Below are positions 47,337 through 54,873 of a stretch of 64,000 nt of DNA, in pieces; positions within the stretch are counted from its first letter, which is position 1, and each line of letters opens with the position of its first letter. The notes under the pieces are model-generated. The model did no database searches and had not been told where the DNA came from. It saw nothing but the letters and a program-made list of their open reading frames with translations. The stretch comes from Rhodobacter aestuarii (GTDB lineage Bacteria; Pseudomonadota; Alphaproteobacteria; Rhodobacterales; Rhodobacteraceae), in assembly GCF_900156655.1 (NCBI RefSeq), contig NZ_FTOG01000001.1:248001-312000 (forward strand), in the 5' to 3' direction. The position numbers and the translations under genes are program-made.

Positions 47337-48167
47337 TTAGCCTTTCAACGCGGCCGCATGATGGGCGATGTGATCGCCGATGAAGCTTGCGATGAAATAA
47401 TAGCTGTGGTCATAGCCCGGCTGGCGGCGCAGCGTCAGCGGATGGCCCAGACGCTCGGCCTCGGCAGCAAAGATCTCGGGCTTAAGCTGATTTTCCAAGA
47501 ACGGGTCCGCCTCGCCTTGGTCAATCAGCACCGGAAGCCGCTCGGAAGCGCCCGCCAAAAGCGCGGTCGCATCCCATTCGGCCCACGTGGCGCGATCTTC
47601 GCCCAAATAGGCGGTGAAGGCTTTTTCGCCCCACGGCACCTGAGTGGGCGCCAAAATCGGCGAAAAGGCCGAGACGGCGGCATAACGACCGGGGTTTTTC
47701 AGCGCGATCGTGAGCGCGCCGTGGCCCCCCATCGAATGCCCCATGATCGAGCGTTTGTCCGAGGCCGGGAACTCCGCCTCGATCAGTTTGGGCAGTTCCT
47801 TGGTGATGTAATCATACATCTTGAAGTGCTGCGCCCAGGGGCCTTGCGTGGCGTTGAGGTAGAACCCCGCGCCTTGGCCCAGATCATAAGCCTCATCATC
47901 GGCCACATCCGCGCCACGGGGCGAGGTATCGGGTGCCACCAAAATCACCCCATGCTGGGCGGCAAATTGTTGCGCGCCCGCTTTGGTGATGAAGTTTTGC
48001 TCGTTACAGGTCAGCCCCGACAGCCAATAGATCACCGGCAGCCGCTCCCCCGCCGCATGGGCGGGGGTAAAAACGGCAAAGCTCATCTCACAGCCCAGCA
48101 CCTCGGATGCGTGCTTCCAGACCGTTTGCGCGCCGCCAAAACAGGCGTGCGATTCAAGCCGTTCCAT
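47337..48167 (-). CDS. fghA: S-formylglutathione hydrolase
   Basis: A 276-residue esterase D family enzyme that hydrolyses S-formylglutathione to formate and glutathione. The nucleophile is the Ser in IMGHSMGGHGALTIAL; LSGLTCNEQNFITKAGAQ and APDTSPRG are signature segments; the catalytic His is in PGYDHSYYFIASFI. The ATG at 48167 (MERLESHACFGG) matches family starts; upstream in-frame sequence overlaps adhC. It lies 10 bp after adhC and completes the frmR-adhC-fghA operon. Confidence 0.95.
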   Translation of the reverse strand: MERLESHACFGGAQTVWKHASEVLGCEMSFAVFTPAHAAGERLPVIYWLSGLTCNEQNFITKAGAQQFAAQHGVILVAPDTSPRGADVADDEAYDLGQGAGFYLNATQGPWAQHFKMYDYITKELPKLIEAEFPASDKRSIMGHSMGGHGALTIALKNPGRYAAVSAFSPILAPTQVPWGEKAFTAYLGEDRATWAEWDATALLAGASERLPVLIDQGEADPFLENQLKPEIFAAEAERLGHPLTLRRQPGYDHSYYFIASFIGDHIAHHAAALKG

Positions 48168-48177
48168 CTGCGCAGCC

Positions 48178-49571
<1,394 letters not shown>

Positions 49572-49734: not shown

Positions 49735-50733
49735 TCAGCCAAGCAAGATCAGATGCGAGCGCAAGATCGCGTAAATCGTCACCGCGCCAAAGGCGGCAAA
49801 GCCTGCCATCGCCCAAAGTGTGAGCCGCTTCAGTACCGGGGGCAGGGGGGCGCGCAGGCTGTCACGGCGCTTGAACGGGGCCACCGCGCCCAGCCCAAGC
49901 GCGAGCGCAGTTGCGCCAAAAAGCGGGATGTAGAACGCGTAGCCAATATAGCCGTATTCGCGCTGCAAGATGCAAAACGGGCAATGGTGGTTGGGGTTTT
50001 CATAGATGTAGAGCGAAATCACCGAGATGATCGCGGTCATCGCCACGGCAAAGAAACCCGCCCCCGCAAGCGCAAAGGCGCCATGCCCGCGCCCGGTTTG
50101 GACGGCATAGGCGCCTAGGCCCAGAACCAAAGCCTCGGCCCCCGCCAAAGCCCAAAGCGCAAGCGCCGGATCAACGGCGGCCATCTCATCGGAGAGCCCC
50201 GCATTCGCCGGGGTGAACAGCTTCGAGCAGCACGAGGTGATCACATCGGTCTTGAGGCCAAGGTAATAGGTCAGCTCCAGCCCGCCCGCCAAAAGCACCA
50301 AGGGCGCAATCGCCAACACCAGCGCGTATTTGGCGCGCGTCAGCGGATAGTCGCGGCCAAGCCGGTCCACATGGTCGATCACCAGCCAAACGGCGGCGGC
50401 AAAGAAGACGCTGATCTTGGCGTAAAGCGCGGGGAAGCCATAGGCGTTGACGTTGAGCGTGCCCACCGCGCACATCGCGCCAACGAACAGGGCCGCCATC
50501 CGGTCTGCGTTGAAGACAAACAGAAACAGCGCCACTGCCTCGGCCAGCATCACCATGGCAAACAGGGTCGAGATGAGTTCGGTGCGCCGCTCCATCACCA
50601 ATTGTGCGCGGCTGCCAGAGGCCAGATCCCACTGCCGCAACACGCGTTGCCCAAACCACGCCGCGCCCAAGGCCACCAAAATGGCAAGGGCAGAGACCAA
50701 GAGCAGCGTCAGGATGGGCGTGCGGAAGATCAT
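49735..50733 (-). CDS. Polytopic membrane protein with HHCPFC loop, unknown function
   Basis: A 332-residue inner-membrane protein with about nine hydrophobic segments. Two cysteine sites stand out: Cys168-Cys169 in VITSCCSKLFTP, and His249-His250-Cys251-x2-Cys254 in NPNHHCPFCILQREYGY, both in loops next to helices. The arrangement suggests metal binding or a thiol-redox pair; it is not a recognised VKOR or DsbB sequence. Its ATG overlaps the stop of the ABC ATPase gene by 4 bp, so it is the last gene of the NosL/ABC operon. No family name can be assigned. Confidence 0.75.
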   Translation of the reverse strand: MIFRTPILTLLLVSALAILVALGAAWFGQRVLRQWDLASGSRAQLVMERRTELISTLFAMVMLAEAVALFLFVFNADRMAALFVGAMCAVGTLNVNAYGFPALYAKISVFFAAAVWLVIDHVDRLGRDYPLTRAKYALVLAIAPLVLLAGGLELTYYLGLKTDVITSCCSKLFTPANAGLSDEMAAVDPALALWALAGAEALVLGLGAYAVQTGRGHGAFALAGAGFFAVAMTAIISVISLYIYENPNHHCPFCILQREYGYIGYAFYIPLFGATALALGLGAVAPFKRRDSLRAPLPPVLKRLTLWAMAGFAAFGAVTIYAILRSHLILLG

Positions 50734-51410
50734 CCCCGCACCTCGACCACTTTGCCATCGCGCATTTCAACGACCGCGGTCACGGCACTGGCGGCGATGA
50801 TCCGCGGGTCATGGCTTGTCAGGATCACGGTTTTGCCCTCATCCCGCAGCCCAGCGACAATATCCAAAAACCGATGCGTGAGCGCGGTATCAAGGTTGGC
50901 GGTTGGCTCATCGGCAATCAGCACCGGGGCATCGTTGACCAAGGCGCGCGCAATCGCGGCGCGCTGCGTTTCGCCGCCCGACAGCACCTCAACCGGCATC
51001 AAGGCTTTCTCGGCCAGCCCCAAAGCCTCAAGCCGCATCATCGCGCGGGCTTGCACGGTTTTTGGCTCTTCGCCCAAGGGGGCGGCGGGCAGCATCACAT
51101 TATCCAACACGCTCAAGCCGCGAATGAGGTTGAAGCGCTGGAACACAAACCCAAATTTCACGCGTCGCAACTCGGTCAAGAACCGCTCGGGCAGGCCCGA
51201 GACCGGCTCCCCATCAAGCGTGATCCGCCCGGTGGTGGGGCGTGCCATGCAGCCCACAAGGCTCAACAGCGTGGTCTTGCCCGAGCCTGAAGGGCCCATG
51301 AACACCGTCACCCCCTCGCGCGCGATATCAAGCGTGACGCTGCGCAGCGCGGCCACCTCATTCGGGCGGCCCTCGTTATAGGTTTTGGAGACATCGGAGA
51401 GAGAGATCAT
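50730..51410 (-). CDS. ABC transporter ATP-binding protein, MacB/LolD type
   Basis: A 226-residue ATPase. Walker A GPSGSGKTTLLSLVG, Q-loop FGFVFQRFNLI, signature VEVLSGGETQRAAIARAL, Walker B VLIADEPTANLD and H-loop VILTSHDPRI are all intact. It groups by pattern with the MacB/LolD/DevA ATPases, which pair with FtsX-like permeases. The ATG at 51410 (MISLSDVSKTY) overlaps the permease stop by 4 bp. It energises the permease encoded just upstream. Confidence 0.92.
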   Translation of the reverse strand: MISLSDVSKTYNEGRPNEVAALRSVTLDIAREGVTVFMGPSGSGKTTLLSLVGCMARPTTGRITLDGEPVSGLPERFLTELRRVKFGFVFQRFNLIRGLSVLDNVMLPAAPLGEEPKTVQARAMMRLEALGLAEKALMPVEVLSGGETQRAAIARALVNDAPVLIADEPTANLDTALTHRFLDIVAGLRDEGKTVILTSHDPRIIAASAVTAVVEMRDGKVVEVRG

Positions 51411-52543
51411 CGCATCACCGCATCGGGGTCGGCACTCGCCGCGCGCCACACCGGCACCACGGTCGCGGCGGCATAGGGAAGCACGGTCAAAAGGAAAAGC
51501 GTCACCAATTGCGAGCCGTCAATCACCGGGGCAAGCGCAAAGTCCGGGTAGATCACCGCCCAGCCCTTCAGCACCGGGGCAAAAAGCGGCGCGCCAAACC
51601 AAAACACATGCGCATAGGCGGCCACCGCGCCCAACAAAAACGCGCCGACCGAGACAAGCCCGCCTTCCCAAAGCTTCATCGCAATCACATCGCGCGTATC
51701 CCAGCCGATGGCTTTCAAAATGCCAATCTCGCGCGCTTCTTCGGCCGAGAGTCCCGAGGCTTTATCGGCGGCAAAAATCGCAAAAGCGAGCATCGCCATC
51801 GCGCCAAGGGCGACCATAAGCCCCTCGCGCCAATCAAACAGCTTCATATAGGTGCGGGCAATATCATCGCGGCTGACAAAGCGTTCATCGGGCATCAGGC
51901 TCGTGGCTTTGTCGATGATCGTGGCAAGCTCATTGGCGTTGCGCACCCGCGCGGCGATATCGGTATAAACCCCTTCGGGGACCGAGAAGAAGGCGCGGAA
52001 ATCAGCCTCGTTCATCAACAAGAGATCGGCGGTCAAAAGCGCGGAATCGCTGCTGTAGATCTGTGCAATATCAAAGCGGTTCAGATCGCCCTGCTTGCGG
52101 CTTAGGAACAGCGGCGCCCCCTCCCAATCGAGCCCGCGCGCGCGGGGAATACCCTCGCCCACAATCACCTGACCAGGCGCAGGCATCTGCCCGCCATCGG
52201 GCACCATCACCGTGTAATTCGCGCCGCTAACCCGATCATAATAATAGCCCCAAAGTCGCCCACGCACCTTGGAGACACCGCGAATGCTTTCGAGCTCCGC
52301 AATCCGGTCTTCAGAGATCATCCCCTGACGGCCAAGGCTAAGGTGCTGCACAATCAAATCGGGCACACCTTCCAAAGCCGCGCTCGCCTCATGCCGCAGC
52401 GCCGAAGCGAAGAACATGGCTGAGGCAAGCAAAAACACCACAAGCGAGAACACGCCCACAAGGGCAAGGTTCTTCACCTTGCGCCGCGCCAAAGCGGCGA
52501 GCGTGTAATCGGCCAGCGCGCGCTGGCGGCGCAGCGCTTTCAT
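51407..52543 (-). CDS. ABC transporter permease, FtsX/MacB type
   Basis: A 378-residue permease. One N-terminal helix (NLALVGVFSLVVFLLASAMFF), a periplasmic domain of about 190 residues, and three C-terminal helices with the mechanotransmission-type segment ADKASGLSAEEAREIGILKAIGWDTRDVIAMKLWEG give the FtsX layout. The ATG at 52543 has AGGAGG 7 bases upstream. Overlaps on both sides are 4 bp. It would move or extract a substrate at the inner membrane with the adjacent ATPase, in the periplasmic context of the NosL proteins. Confidence 0.9.
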   Translation of the reverse strand: MKALRRQRALADYTLAALARRKVKNLALVGVFSLVVFLLASAMFFASALRHEASAALEGVPDLIVQHLSLGRQGMISEDRIAELESIRGVSKVRGRLWGYYYDRVSGANYTVMVPDGGQMPAPGQVIVGEGIPRARGLDWEGAPLFLSRKQGDLNRFDIAQIYSSDSALLTADLLLMNEADFRAFFSVPEGVYTDIAARVRNANELATIIDKATSLMPDERFVSRDDIARTYMKLFDWREGLMVALGAMAMLAFAIFAADKASGLSAEEAREIGILKAIGWDTRDVIAMKLWEGGLVSVGAFLLGAVAAYAHVFWFGAPLFAPVLKGWAVIYPDFALAPVIDGSQLVTLFLLTVLPYAAATVVPVWRAASADPDAVMR

Positions 52544-52887
52544 TGCGTGACCTCCTGCGGCGCAAATCCAAGTTTGGCCGTGCCCCAAGGGCCGGCGGGC
52601 GGCACAAAAGAGCCTGAGGGGAAATGCTCAAAACTGCCCGGCGCATCTTGGAAGGCCGAGGCATTATCGGCCAGCGCCGGGTGGCGGGTGTAGCGCGCCT
52701 CGGTGAAAAGCGCCAAATCGCTAAGGCCCAAATCGCGCACAAGCGCGCGGTTGGCGGCGATCCGGGCCGCTTCGCGTGGCGCGGTGGCCAGCGCATGCAC
52801 CGCCTGCGCGGCTCCCAAGGCGAGCAAAAGGCCAAGCGCCGTGAAGACCGGGGTCAAGGGGCGGCGGTAAGGGCGCGGTTGGCTCAC
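52540..52887 (-). CDS. Small membrane-anchored protein of unknown function
   Basis: A 115-residue protein. One N-terminal helix (PVFTALGLLLALGAAQAVHAL) precedes a periplasmic region ending GPWGTAKLGFAPQEVTQ. No cysteines are present. The start is a GTG at 52887, overlapping the NosL stop by 4 bp (GTGA), with AAGG upstream; translational coupling is likely. Its conserved placing between NosL and the permease in this operon suggests a partner role, but no family is recognised. Confidence 0.7.
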   Translation of the reverse strand: MSQPRPYRRPLTPVFTALGLLLALGAAQAVHALATAPREAARIAANRALVRDLGLSDLALFTEARYTRHPALADNASAFQDAPGSFEHFPSGSFVPPAGPWGTAKLGFAPQEVTQ

Positions 52888-53411
52888 TCGAATGCGCCTT
52901 CATCGAGCTTGAAGGGCAGATCGGGCGTGACCTCGTCAAAACTCAAAAGCCGCTGGCCCTTATGGTCGGCCATGAAATCCGTGGCATCCGCCTCCGAAGC
53001 AAGCGGCACAAATTCATGCCCCATGGGCCCGAGCACATCTGAGCCCACGGCATAAACCGCTTCGCGCGCATCGACGAGGGCAACCTCGTAATAATCGCTC
53101 ACCCCCATGCCGGTGATTTGGTCGCGCGTGCGGCCCGTGGCGTATTTGCCGGGGTCATGCAGGAATTTGAAGAAATCCTTCGCGCCATCAAAATGGACCG
53201 CTTCGCCATCGGCAAATTGGATCGTGGCCACCCAATCGGGGTAGCGCGCCACAAACATCCCGCAAACGGGGCAGGTGTCGCGCGGGCCGGGCGGCGGCAG
53301 GTCGATCGCGGTGGCTTTGGCGCGCGCGGCACGCGGCGCAAGGGGCAGGGCGGATGCACCCAAAAGCAGCGCCAAAGTGGTGCGGCGGTTCGGGCGAGAG
53401 ATGGTGCACAT
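52884..53411 (-). CDS. NosL family protein, probable copper chaperone
   Basis: A 175-residue exported protein. The N-terminus PNRRTTLALLLGASALPLAP has a twin Arg and looks like a Tat-type signal, lacking the lipobox Cys usual in NosL. The mature part has TCPVCGMFVARYPDW (Cys47, Cys50, Met52) and VLGPMGHEFVPLASEADATDF with Met130 and His132, the conserved NosL segments. NosL binds Cu(I) and delivers it to nitrous oxide reductase. No nosZ, nosD or nosF is in the window. ATG at 53411 follows AGGAGG. Confidence 0.85.
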   Translation of the reverse strand: MCTISRPNRRTTLALLLGASALPLAPRAARAKATAIDLPPPGPRDTCPVCGMFVARYPDWVATIQFADGEAVHFDGAKDFFKFLHDPGKYATGRTRDQITGMGVSDYYEVALVDAREAVYAVGSDVLGPMGHEFVPLASEADATDFMADHKGQRLLSFDEVTPDLPFKLDEGAFE

Positions 53412-53468
53412 ACGCGTTCCTCCTGAACCGGCCACGCCCTCGCAGGCGCGGCCAGCCATGTGATGGTG

Positions 53469-54110
53469 TTAGTTGCCCGAGGGCATTTCCATGCCCATCT
53501 GCTTGCGTTTTTCGCCGCGCCGCTTGCGGATGGCGAGCGTGTCTTTCGCCATATCCAAATAGGCCAAAGTCAGCGCTTCTTCAAAAGTGGCGGTCTTCGC
53601 GCCTTTGCTCGCCGCCTCCTCGGCCTTGGCCGCATCGGCATAGGCCCATTTGGAGACCGCCGTCATCGTGCCGGGTTTGGCCGGGTCGATCACATAGGTC
53701 ATGGCGGCGGTATCGGCGAGCGGTTTCACCTCGCCCTCGGCCCCGGCATCGCCCGCATAAATCGCCTTCGGCCCGGCATCCATATTGAGCGAAAGCGAGA
53801 TCGCCGCGCAATGCAGCGAGCAGGTGCCATCCACCGTGTCATTGCCATAAACGATCAGGTGGCGGCTGTGCGAATACATCTGCCGCATCATCCCGCAATA
53901 GGGGCAGCGCGGGTATTTTGCGAATTCGTCGTTCAGCGGATCGGTGTCGTGTTTCAAAAACCGGGTGAGCCCGTTTTCATCGGTCCATTGCATCGGGCTG
54001 ACGGGCTTTTCGCCGGGGCTCATCGCCATTTCGGCATGCGCGGCGGCGGCCCCGAGGCTCGCAAAGGCGGCACCGGTGGTGGTGGTCAAAAGAAAATCGC
54101 GACGGTTCAT
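53469..54110 (-). CDS. NosL-like protein with Tat signal, second copy
   Basis: A 213-residue protein. MNRRDFLLTTTTGAAFASLGAAAAHA is a strong Tat signal. The core RCPYCGMMRQMYSHSRHLIVYGN (Cys69, Cys72, Met74, Met75) and DGTCSLHCAAISLSLN (Cys97, His100, Cys101) are metal-site patterns found in the wider NosL superfamily. The C-terminus is Met-rich (KQMGMEMPSGN), a frequent copper-protein trait. It differs in length and motif from its neighbour, so it is not a recent duplicate. Tat export would allow folding or cofactor loading in the cytoplasm. Confidence 0.82.
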   Translation of the reverse strand: MNRRDFLLTTTTGAAFASLGAAAAHAEMAMSPGEKPVSPMQWTDENGLTRFLKHDTDPLNDEFAKYPRCPYCGMMRQMYSHSRHLIVYGNDTVDGTCSLHCAAISLSLNMDAGPKAIYAGDAGAEGEVKPLADTAAMTYVIDPAKPGTMTAVSKWAYADAAKAEEAASKGAKTATFEEALTLAYLDMAKDTLAIRKRRGEKRKQMGMEMPSGN

Positions 54111-54222
54111 GGAAATCTCCAAAATTTGGCTGAAAAGCGCCCAAGGGCGCAGGGTCTGGCTGAGACAAGAAAGCCTTTGCTGCACCGGCATCGCGGGACG
54201 CTGCGCACCGGTGCAAAGGGCC

Positions 54223-54690
54223 TTACGCGGCCGGTGGTGCGCGGATCAGGCCAGAGCGGCGCGGTGCCGCGATAATGTCGAAGGGTATAAAAAGTACAGG
54301 TTCTGCAACGGCTTGCAGCGTGAAATTGGGTGTGGGGGCGGTGGCGCCCGTAGGGGCATCAAAGCTGCACACTCCCGCGCTGGAACAAACCGCGCAATCG
54401 CCGTGGCTGGTTGGGCTGGGCAGGCTTTGGCCCGGTGCGGTGACCATCTTGCCGGTGGCGGGGTCGTAAAGCGCGATCCCTTCGCCGGTGCAGATTTGCA
54501 AGAACCCCAGCCGTTCGCCGGGCGTGACCGAGCCCATCGCATGAACCGCAGAGGCGCCCAGATGTTCGGCAAAGAACACCACCTGCACCAGCATCGCCAA
54601 AACCGCGAGCGCGCGCAGCACAGGGCTGCGAGACGGGCGCGAGGGGGCAGGGCGGGCAGATCTCAAAGGGGCGGTCTTTCCGGGTGGCAC
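54223..54690 (-). CDS. Small DUF2946-like protein, unknown function
   Basis: A 155-residue protein. A basic N-terminus with several Arg precedes one helix (LRALAVLAMLVQVVFFAEHLG) and a region with three cysteines (QICTGEGIALYDP and HGDCAVCSSAGVC). The N-terminal helix plus CxxC is reminiscent of DUF2946 proteins, which occur near copper genes; this is a weak match. The start is taken as the GTG at 54690, without a good ribosome site, so the N-terminus is uncertain. It is the first gene of the run, 112 bp before the second NosL. Confidence 0.6.
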   Translation of the reverse strand: MPPGKTAPLRSARPAPSRPSRSPVLRALAVLAMLVQVVFFAEHLGASAVHAMGSVTPGERLGFLQICTGEGIALYDPATGKMVTAPGQSLPSPTSHGDCAVCSSAGVCSFDAPTGATAPTPNFTLQAVAEPVLFIPFDIIAAPRRSGLIRAPPAA

Positions 54691-54873
54691 GGTTTCGCGG
54701 CAGGTTCACCGCAGTTGGTTAAAAAAGCAACACCCTTCGCGGGACTTGCGGCGCGAAGCTGCGACATTTTCACCGCGCTAGCCGCTGCGTCCGCGCCTTT
54801 CCTTGACCGAAATCAAATCCGCCCCTCTGGCATGCGGGCGCGGCGCAGGCTAGAGCAGGGGCAGGAGACCCCC

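Follow-up and report, generated by a model that had tools for sequence, protein, structure and literature searches.

What does an operon with two NosL genes do in a genome in which no nosZ gene is found? The question is raised by seven genes, here called A to G, in a 64-kb stretch of the Rhodobacter aestuarii genome (the window, contig NZ_FTOG01000001.1; the whole genome is 3.84 Mb in 31 contigs). The data support a conserved copper-related operon, and on balance we think it probable that it encodes a machine delivering Cu(I) to respiratory cuproenzymes, run at low copper and, in this organism, probably low oxygen. Nitrous oxide (N2O) reductase, mainly that of clade II, is supported as the client in many lineages by co-occurrence and linkage. 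The client in R. aestuarii would be another cuproenzyme, and our guess is a cbb3-type oxidase. We infer the cargo, the direction and the target of the module.

The genes are co-directional on the minus strand (54690-49735), as the original prediction had it. They are listed here with the adjoining features, lengths being in amino acids (aa) and nucleotides (nt).

FNR-like box, 54803..54816, symmetric, strand not given: TTGAY-N4-RTCAA, TTGATTTCGGTCAA
Gene A, 54223..54690, minus strand: putative CruR/CutF-like upstream open reading frame (ORF), 155 aa, GTG start
A-B intergenic region, 54111..54222, minus strand: 112 nt, in which a hairpin can be drawn
Gene B, 53469..54110, minus strand: NosL-family protein 1 (NosL1), 213 aa
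Gene C, 52884..53411, minus strand: NosL-family protein 2 (NosL2), 175 aa
Gene D, 52540..52887, minus strand: small protein with no Pfam family, 115 aa, GTG start
Gene E, 51407..52543, minus strand: FtsX-type permease of an ATP-binding cassette (ABC) transporter, 378 aa
Gene F, 50730..51410, minus strand: ABC ATPase of the FtsE/MacB/LolD kind, 226 aa
Gene G, 49735..50733, minus strand: orphan protein with eight long helices, 332 aa

The C/D, D/E, E/F and F/G junctions are all 4-bp overlaps, as predicted, but the fifth tight junction that had been claimed is there only if the 57 nt between B and C are counted as such; A and B are 112 nt apart.

Both B and C are NosL-family proteins, and here the prediction holds. 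Their Pfam scores for NosL (PF05573, cut-off 24 bits) are 28.9 and 108.1 bits respectively (Pfam queries for B, C and F carried 1 to 7 extra start codons), and profiles of the orthologues find solved NosL structures with best E-values of 6.7e-05 for B and 4.1e-13 for C. B has a twin-arginine N-terminus (RRDFL) and a CPYCGM motif, and C an RR-containing N-terminus, a CPVCGM motif and a conserved Met130. The CXXCGM form of the copper motif is present in all 43 B and all 46 C sequences aligned, with C69, C72, M74 and M149 invariant in B and C47, C50, M52 and M130 in C. CXXCXM is described as the motif form of clade II NosL (PMC6530538). By eye there is no lipobox Cys in the N-termini of 12 B and 12 C sequences, and no NosL match other than B and C was found in the R. 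aestuarii genome. Two adjacent nosL genes of Ca. Nitricoxidivorans perseverans (OHM77_08590 and OHM77_08595), numbered far from its nos cluster (OHM77_060xx), are both transcribed and one was detected as protein (PMC10390337); they are a lead, as candidate counterparts of B and C.

The ABC transporter is of a different class from NosFY, again as predicted. E scores 33.8 bits with Pfam FtsX (cut-off 25.5), and its AlphaFold model (predicted local distance difference test, pLDDT, 83.9) has N-terminal helices, then a large mixed alpha/beta domain and then more long helices. In Foldseek the model has 58 matches at E-value <= 0.001, the best being LolE of LolCDE (1.5e-15), and the best 50 of the 58 are LolCDE, MacB, HrtB, YbbP, BceB, FtsX and similar permeases. 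On the strength of its model E is a permease of the LolCDE/MacB type. F matches Pfam ABC_tran at 100 bits and has its top scores with FtsE, MacB and LolD models, all under their cut-offs. The pair thus resembles LolCDE, MacB and HrtBA in the permease fold (helix, large periplasmic domain, more helices) and in having a LolD/MacB-like ATPase. It differs in having a single permease gene, paired with the NosL proteins, D and G, and in forming an operon unit without a lipoprotein or tripartite-efflux partner. With regard to NosDFYL, the likeness is that NosL-family copper proteins stand next to an ABC transporter, in a module tied to nosZ by co-occurrence and linkage. However, the module has a pair of NosL proteins whose N-termini look twin-arginine-like and in which no lipobox was seen, its permease is of the FtsX type and not NosY, no NosD match is found among the seven genes, and it occurs without nosZ.

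D and G have no Pfam family at E-value <= 1. D has a single N-terminal hydrophobic segment (by eye) and a conserved stretch LFTEARYTRHP...AD...FQD...HFPSG. A short protein is encoded directly upstream of D in a gammaproteobacterial locus (L066:8515-8826) and at the matching place in L058, and by eye we take it to resemble an encapsulated ferritin.

G is modelled (pLDDT 91.5) with eight long helices, and the model matches no solved structure in Foldseek at E-value <= 0.001, DsbB/VKOR-like folds included; in VIA-align its two halves fit unrelated helical bundles, and the rows span helical bundles. Met87, Cys88, Cys168, Cys169, His249, His250 and Cys251 are invariant in 62 of 62 sequences and Cys254 is kept in 60. 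Every one of these conserved residues is in loop 2, 4 or 6. Positive charges per residue are fewer in these three loops than in loops 1, 3, 5 and 7, so the conserved residues probably face the periplasm, where they could bind Cu(I) or take part in thiol redox chemistry.

The original prediction proposed a search for the same gene order in other genomes, and the order is indeed conserved. The closest relatives are Rhodobacter species. G is present in 14 of 61 relatives, with a patchy distribution in the genus (11 of 18 genomes, R. aestuarii included), and 10 of the 13 relative loci have all of A-G in order. As for the other three, L028 has B-G without a match to A, L026 begins inside E at a contig end with B and C of the same genome on another contig, and L029 has only G. 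The last (G029:C20:57109-57834) has an in-frame TGA in G and no further module gene within its 20-kb stretch; it is a decaying copy in a genome with clade I NosZ. A wider scan for relatives of E reports 388, of which the best 80 were taken as loci L030-L109. In L030-L056, which are Rhodobacteraceae/Rhodobacterales by title (eight being identical or very near to genomes of the first set), the order A-G is complete in 26 of 27, the exception (L044) being cut at a contig end. The surroundings of A-G vary between these loci, so it is a self-contained unit there. L057-L109 are 53 loci, most of them from beta- and gammaproteobacteria and some from alphaproteobacteria. Of these, 49 contain D-E-F-G, and in the other four D or G is missing where the stored stretch ends; B and C are in the stored flanks of 31. 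The D-E-F-G core and both NosL genes therefore recur in alpha-, beta- and gammaproteobacteria.

Neighbours of the module in L057-L109 include genes for SCO (24/53), a TlpA-like thioredoxin (32/53), a heavy-metal P-type ATPase (18/53) and a DsbD_2 membrane protein (17/53), the families being named by Pfam on one representative each. Outside Rhodobacterales the module is adjoined in many loci by SCO, TlpA-like and P-type ATPase genes, as in cuproenzyme assembly sets of the SCO/TlpA/CcoI type, but these genes are not conserved neighbours in L030-L056, and we know of no ABC transporter in the known cytochrome oxidase assembly sets. Two orphan families, in 9 and 6 loci respectively, were seen to separate the TlpA-like gene from that of the heavy-metal P-type ATPase; a single representative of each (L070:13370-13837 and L092:13922-14590) has no Pfam match.

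The original prediction was of a system for a target other than nos, and in this it is not supported: relatives of the module are enriched in genomes that have clade II NosZ, and several genomes have them within a nos cluster or next to one. NosZ was searched for with TIGR04244, which at E-value <= 1e-20 has no match in any of 14 control genomes. For the 61 relatives and for a set of 49 further module genomes we required more than 250 bits, and matches of about 18-24 bits were dropped (21 tallied and 18 counted in the relatives, 36 tallied and 32 counted in the 49). The 49 were drawn from the 80 loci, favouring long contigs and genomes not covered before, and L042 was left out. Clade II NosZ was assigned from scores under the cut-off (about 280-410 bits if whole), with calls checked by eye on L123, L124, L126 and L127 and by Pfam on L069.

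Among the relatives, 9 of the 14 genomes with the module have NosZ, as do 9 of the 47 without it (Fisher p 0.002). In 394 Rhodobacteraceae genomes, about one per genus, the module is in 6 and clade II NosZ in 4, with both in 3 (p 8e-6; for any NosZ p 0.04, with the 88-bit fragments of G136 counted). Clade I NosZ is common in this sample (95 over the cut-off), and the sole one with a module match is G029, with its broken G; in the genus of the window the module does occur together with clade I NosZ, in G004, G008, G009 and G014. For 299 Pseudomonadota any NosZ is present in 5 of 7 module genomes as against 44 of 292 others (p 0.0016; G518 and G732, at under 100 bits, were counted as any NosZ and not as clade II, and the module match of G483 is weak at 113 bits). 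In 150 Rhodocyclaceae genomes the module is present in 19 of 41 with clade II NosZ, 3 of 44 with clade I and 4 of 65 with none found (clade II p 8e-8; the 41 include weak or partial matches in G782, G795, G826 and G829, and G782 and G829 are module genomes).

There is also physical linkage. In 6 of the 22 Rhodocyclaceae with both, nosZ is within 20 kb of the module (G103, G104, G797, G833, G880 and G782, in the last resting on a NosZ fragment). The module stretch itself has nos genes in L069, L081, L090 and L095 (named by eye, with nosZ also by TIGR04244 and in L069 by Pfam), and in L090 nosZ comes after G. In Thauera aminoaromatica (L094) only 13 nt separate D from a preceding NosL-like ORF that has, by eye, a lipobox and CVRCNM, and the distance to a clade I nosZ is 11 kb. 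A gene for a UbiA-like prenyltransferase (by eye) is present between nosY and D in a Thauera (L095:8738-9697) and near nosD in a Rhodocyclaceae metagenome-assembled genome (L081:15516-16487).

Several points qualify the association with NosZ. NosZ was not found in 5 of the 14 module relatives, nor in 17 of the 49 further module genomes (genome completeness not given), and 22 of the 41 clade II Rhodocyclaceae have no module match. All the p values are from Fisher tests, which ignore phylogeny, and in the large samples few first-look candidates were scored per genome, so that absences can be misses. The 17 include all six Thioclava genomes searched (five isolates and one metagenome-assembled genome). 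With the module present without NosZ, and clade II NosZ present without the module, NosZ does not require the module, nor is the module reserved for NosZ. The link between the module and N2O reductase is real, yet it is not exclusive in either direction.

In R. aestuarii itself nosZ was not found (TIGR04244, no candidate), as predicted, nor was NirK, and the same is true of NosZ and NirK in G017. A nosZ cluster elsewhere in the genome would have pointed to a nos accessory set; it was looked for and not found, so the module can persist without NosZ. All seven genes are present and open without a NosZ match in R. aestuarii, G011 and G017. When the window is compared with G017, the ratio of nonsynonymous to synonymous substitution rates (dN/dS) comes to 0.28 in A and falls within 0.08-0.20 in B-G. 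The operon thus seems to be maintained by selection, since the ratio is low between two genomes without NosZ, although part of the low ratio could predate the loss of nosZ.

These data bear on the best of the alternatives, a strict nos accessory set that matures N2O reductase only and is a leftover here after the loss of nosZ. We regard this as unlikely. The association with clade II NosZ and the physical linkage favour it, as do the several relatives in the genus that hold both module and NosZ, and betaproteobacterial NosL is found mostly in species with N2O reductase (PMC6769254), which counts for it and against a broader role. However, the seven genes are open without a NosZ match not only in R. 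aestuarii, G011 and G017 but also in the six Thioclava genomes, dN/dS is far under 1 between two NosZ-less genomes, and many NosZ genomes have no module match.

A slightly less probable alternative is that G, with the TlpA-like and DsbD_2 neighbours, is a thiol redox route, and that the ABC transporter carries not copper but a thiol or sulfur compound that a Cu-S or CuA centre requires. The invariant Cys pairs of G and the presence of those neighbours are in keeping with this, and a role in supplying the sulfide of CuZ has been proposed for NosDFY (PMC6530538). However, there are two NosL copper chaperones within the unit, and for G there is no match to a described family or to a solved structure. 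To our knowledge CuZ is known from N2O reductase only, and in R. aestuarii no N2O reductase was found. For the preferred reading, Cu(I) delivery, the transporter class itself is a difficulty: ABC transporters of the LolCDE/MacB type transport lipoproteins, haem or drugs, and copper is therefore a presumed cargo.

Gene A had been taken as a part of the machine, a DUF2946-like protein, but is best read, from its sequence, as the copper sensor of the operon, a leader ORF like CruR of Bordetella pertussis and CutF of R. capsulatus. It is first in the operon and has a CAVC motif and a C-terminal IRAPPAA. In the set of 29 A proteins (of the 29 orthologues found, L054 was left out by a coverage filter) CXXC and RAPP are within 45 +/- 2 residues in 27, that of the window included, the spacing being exactly 47 in 26 and 45 in one. 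The published spacing is 45, varying by only one or two residues (PMC9426467). The remaining two, both from Maritimibacter (L040:7861-8274 and L047:7878-8294), end in RGPP, a natural variant of the presumed arrest motif. The distance from A to the next gene, 99-205 nt in 26 of 27 loci, is a further likeness to CruR and CutF. In R. capsulatus copper promotes translation of the gene following CutF, and nearly 60% of CutF-like ORFs with a very short spacer or none precede the gene for N2O reductase or its regulator (PMC9973294). Five CutF-like proteins have been counted in R. capsulatus, and NosL is among the genes listed near CutF-like ORFs (PMC8456105), so this pairing has been reported before. 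A is unlike CruR and CutF in heading a NosL/ABC operon, and in its spacing of 47. Two results speak against A as such a leader: its Pfam DUF2946 (PF11162) score of 20 bits is below the cut-off of 23.7, and the A-B intergenic region folds no better than shuffled sequences (z -0.84).

Export or detoxification of copper or another thiophilic metal, with the ABC transporter extruding the metal or a metal-binding molecule and the NosL proteins as periplasmic scavengers, is the least probable reading: CutF-like leaders do also head efflux and multicopper-oxidase operons (PMC9973294) and a P-type ATPase is near the module in 18 of 53 loci, but the conserved A-G unit is without an outer-membrane factor, adaptor or RND (resistance-nodulation-division) gene, the SCO and TlpA-like neighbours point to cuproenzyme assembly, and the NosZ association also tells against it.

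In the case of oxygen, the symmetric box upstream of A was assigned by the consensus that we take to be that of FNR-like sites. Its first base is 126 nt upstream of the GTG of A, and it is the only match in the window. In 9 of 29 loci the 300 nt upstream of A contain a box with at least 9 of the 10 positions, as against 1.9% of 1768 background tiles. The case is lessened by the 20 of 29 upstream regions with no good box, by two pairs of near relatives among the nine positive loci, and by background tiles from which the regions upstream of the operon had not been removed. For R. aestuarii and some relatives, though not for all, control by an FNR-type regulator can reasonably be inferred.

Cu(I) delivery might then proceed as follows. 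Given the box, an FNR-type regulator probably acts on the promoter. By analogy with CruR and CutF, the nascent A peptide would read copper through its CXXC motif and stall on RAPP, so that the output of B-G would follow copper status, with either sign. E and F would form a LolCDE/MacB-like ABC machine in which, judging by the fold, ATP hydrolysis moves periplasmic domains and opens no channel, with D as an anchored periplasmic helper. G would provide, on the periplasmic side, a site rich in Cys, His and Met that either binds Cu(I) or maintains thiols in the reduced state, and NosL1 and NosL2, as their family suggests, would pick up Cu(I) and pass it to the apo-enzyme. We suggest more tentatively that this is a third copper-loading machine beside NosDFY-NosL and SCO/PCuAC. 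It would be an ABC machine of the mechanotransmission type that has in G a Cys/His copper site within the membrane and charges the two NosL chaperones. A copper-sensing nascent peptide and, in some of its hosts, oxygen would switch it, and it could serve more than one cuproenzyme.

Directly after G, at 47337-49571 of the window, is a formaldehyde gene set (frmR, class III alcohol dehydrogenase and S-formylglutathione hydrolase). No formaldehyde genes are beside the module in the 13 relative loci, and we therefore place the set outside the unit.

We found no description of the D-E-F-G/NosL module in the open literature searched (supplementary tables and most subscription papers being outside the scope), and it is not described in the excerpts of PMC6530538, PMC6769254, PMC7558416, PMC9973294, PMC9426467, PMC8456105 and PMC10390337. 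It is an open problem by what route copper gets to periplasmic enzymes, among them N2O reductase, by which the greenhouse gas N2O is removed, and less work has been done on the clade II systems. The module, being widespread, combining an ABC transporter with two NosL proteins and co-occurring with clade II NosZ, provides a missing piece of the copper pathway that can be tested, and gene A adds a family of putative copper-sensing leader peptides with a nearly fixed motif spacing. A module with signs of selection in genomes where NosZ is not found would mean that NosL-type chaperones are not restricted to N2O reductase.

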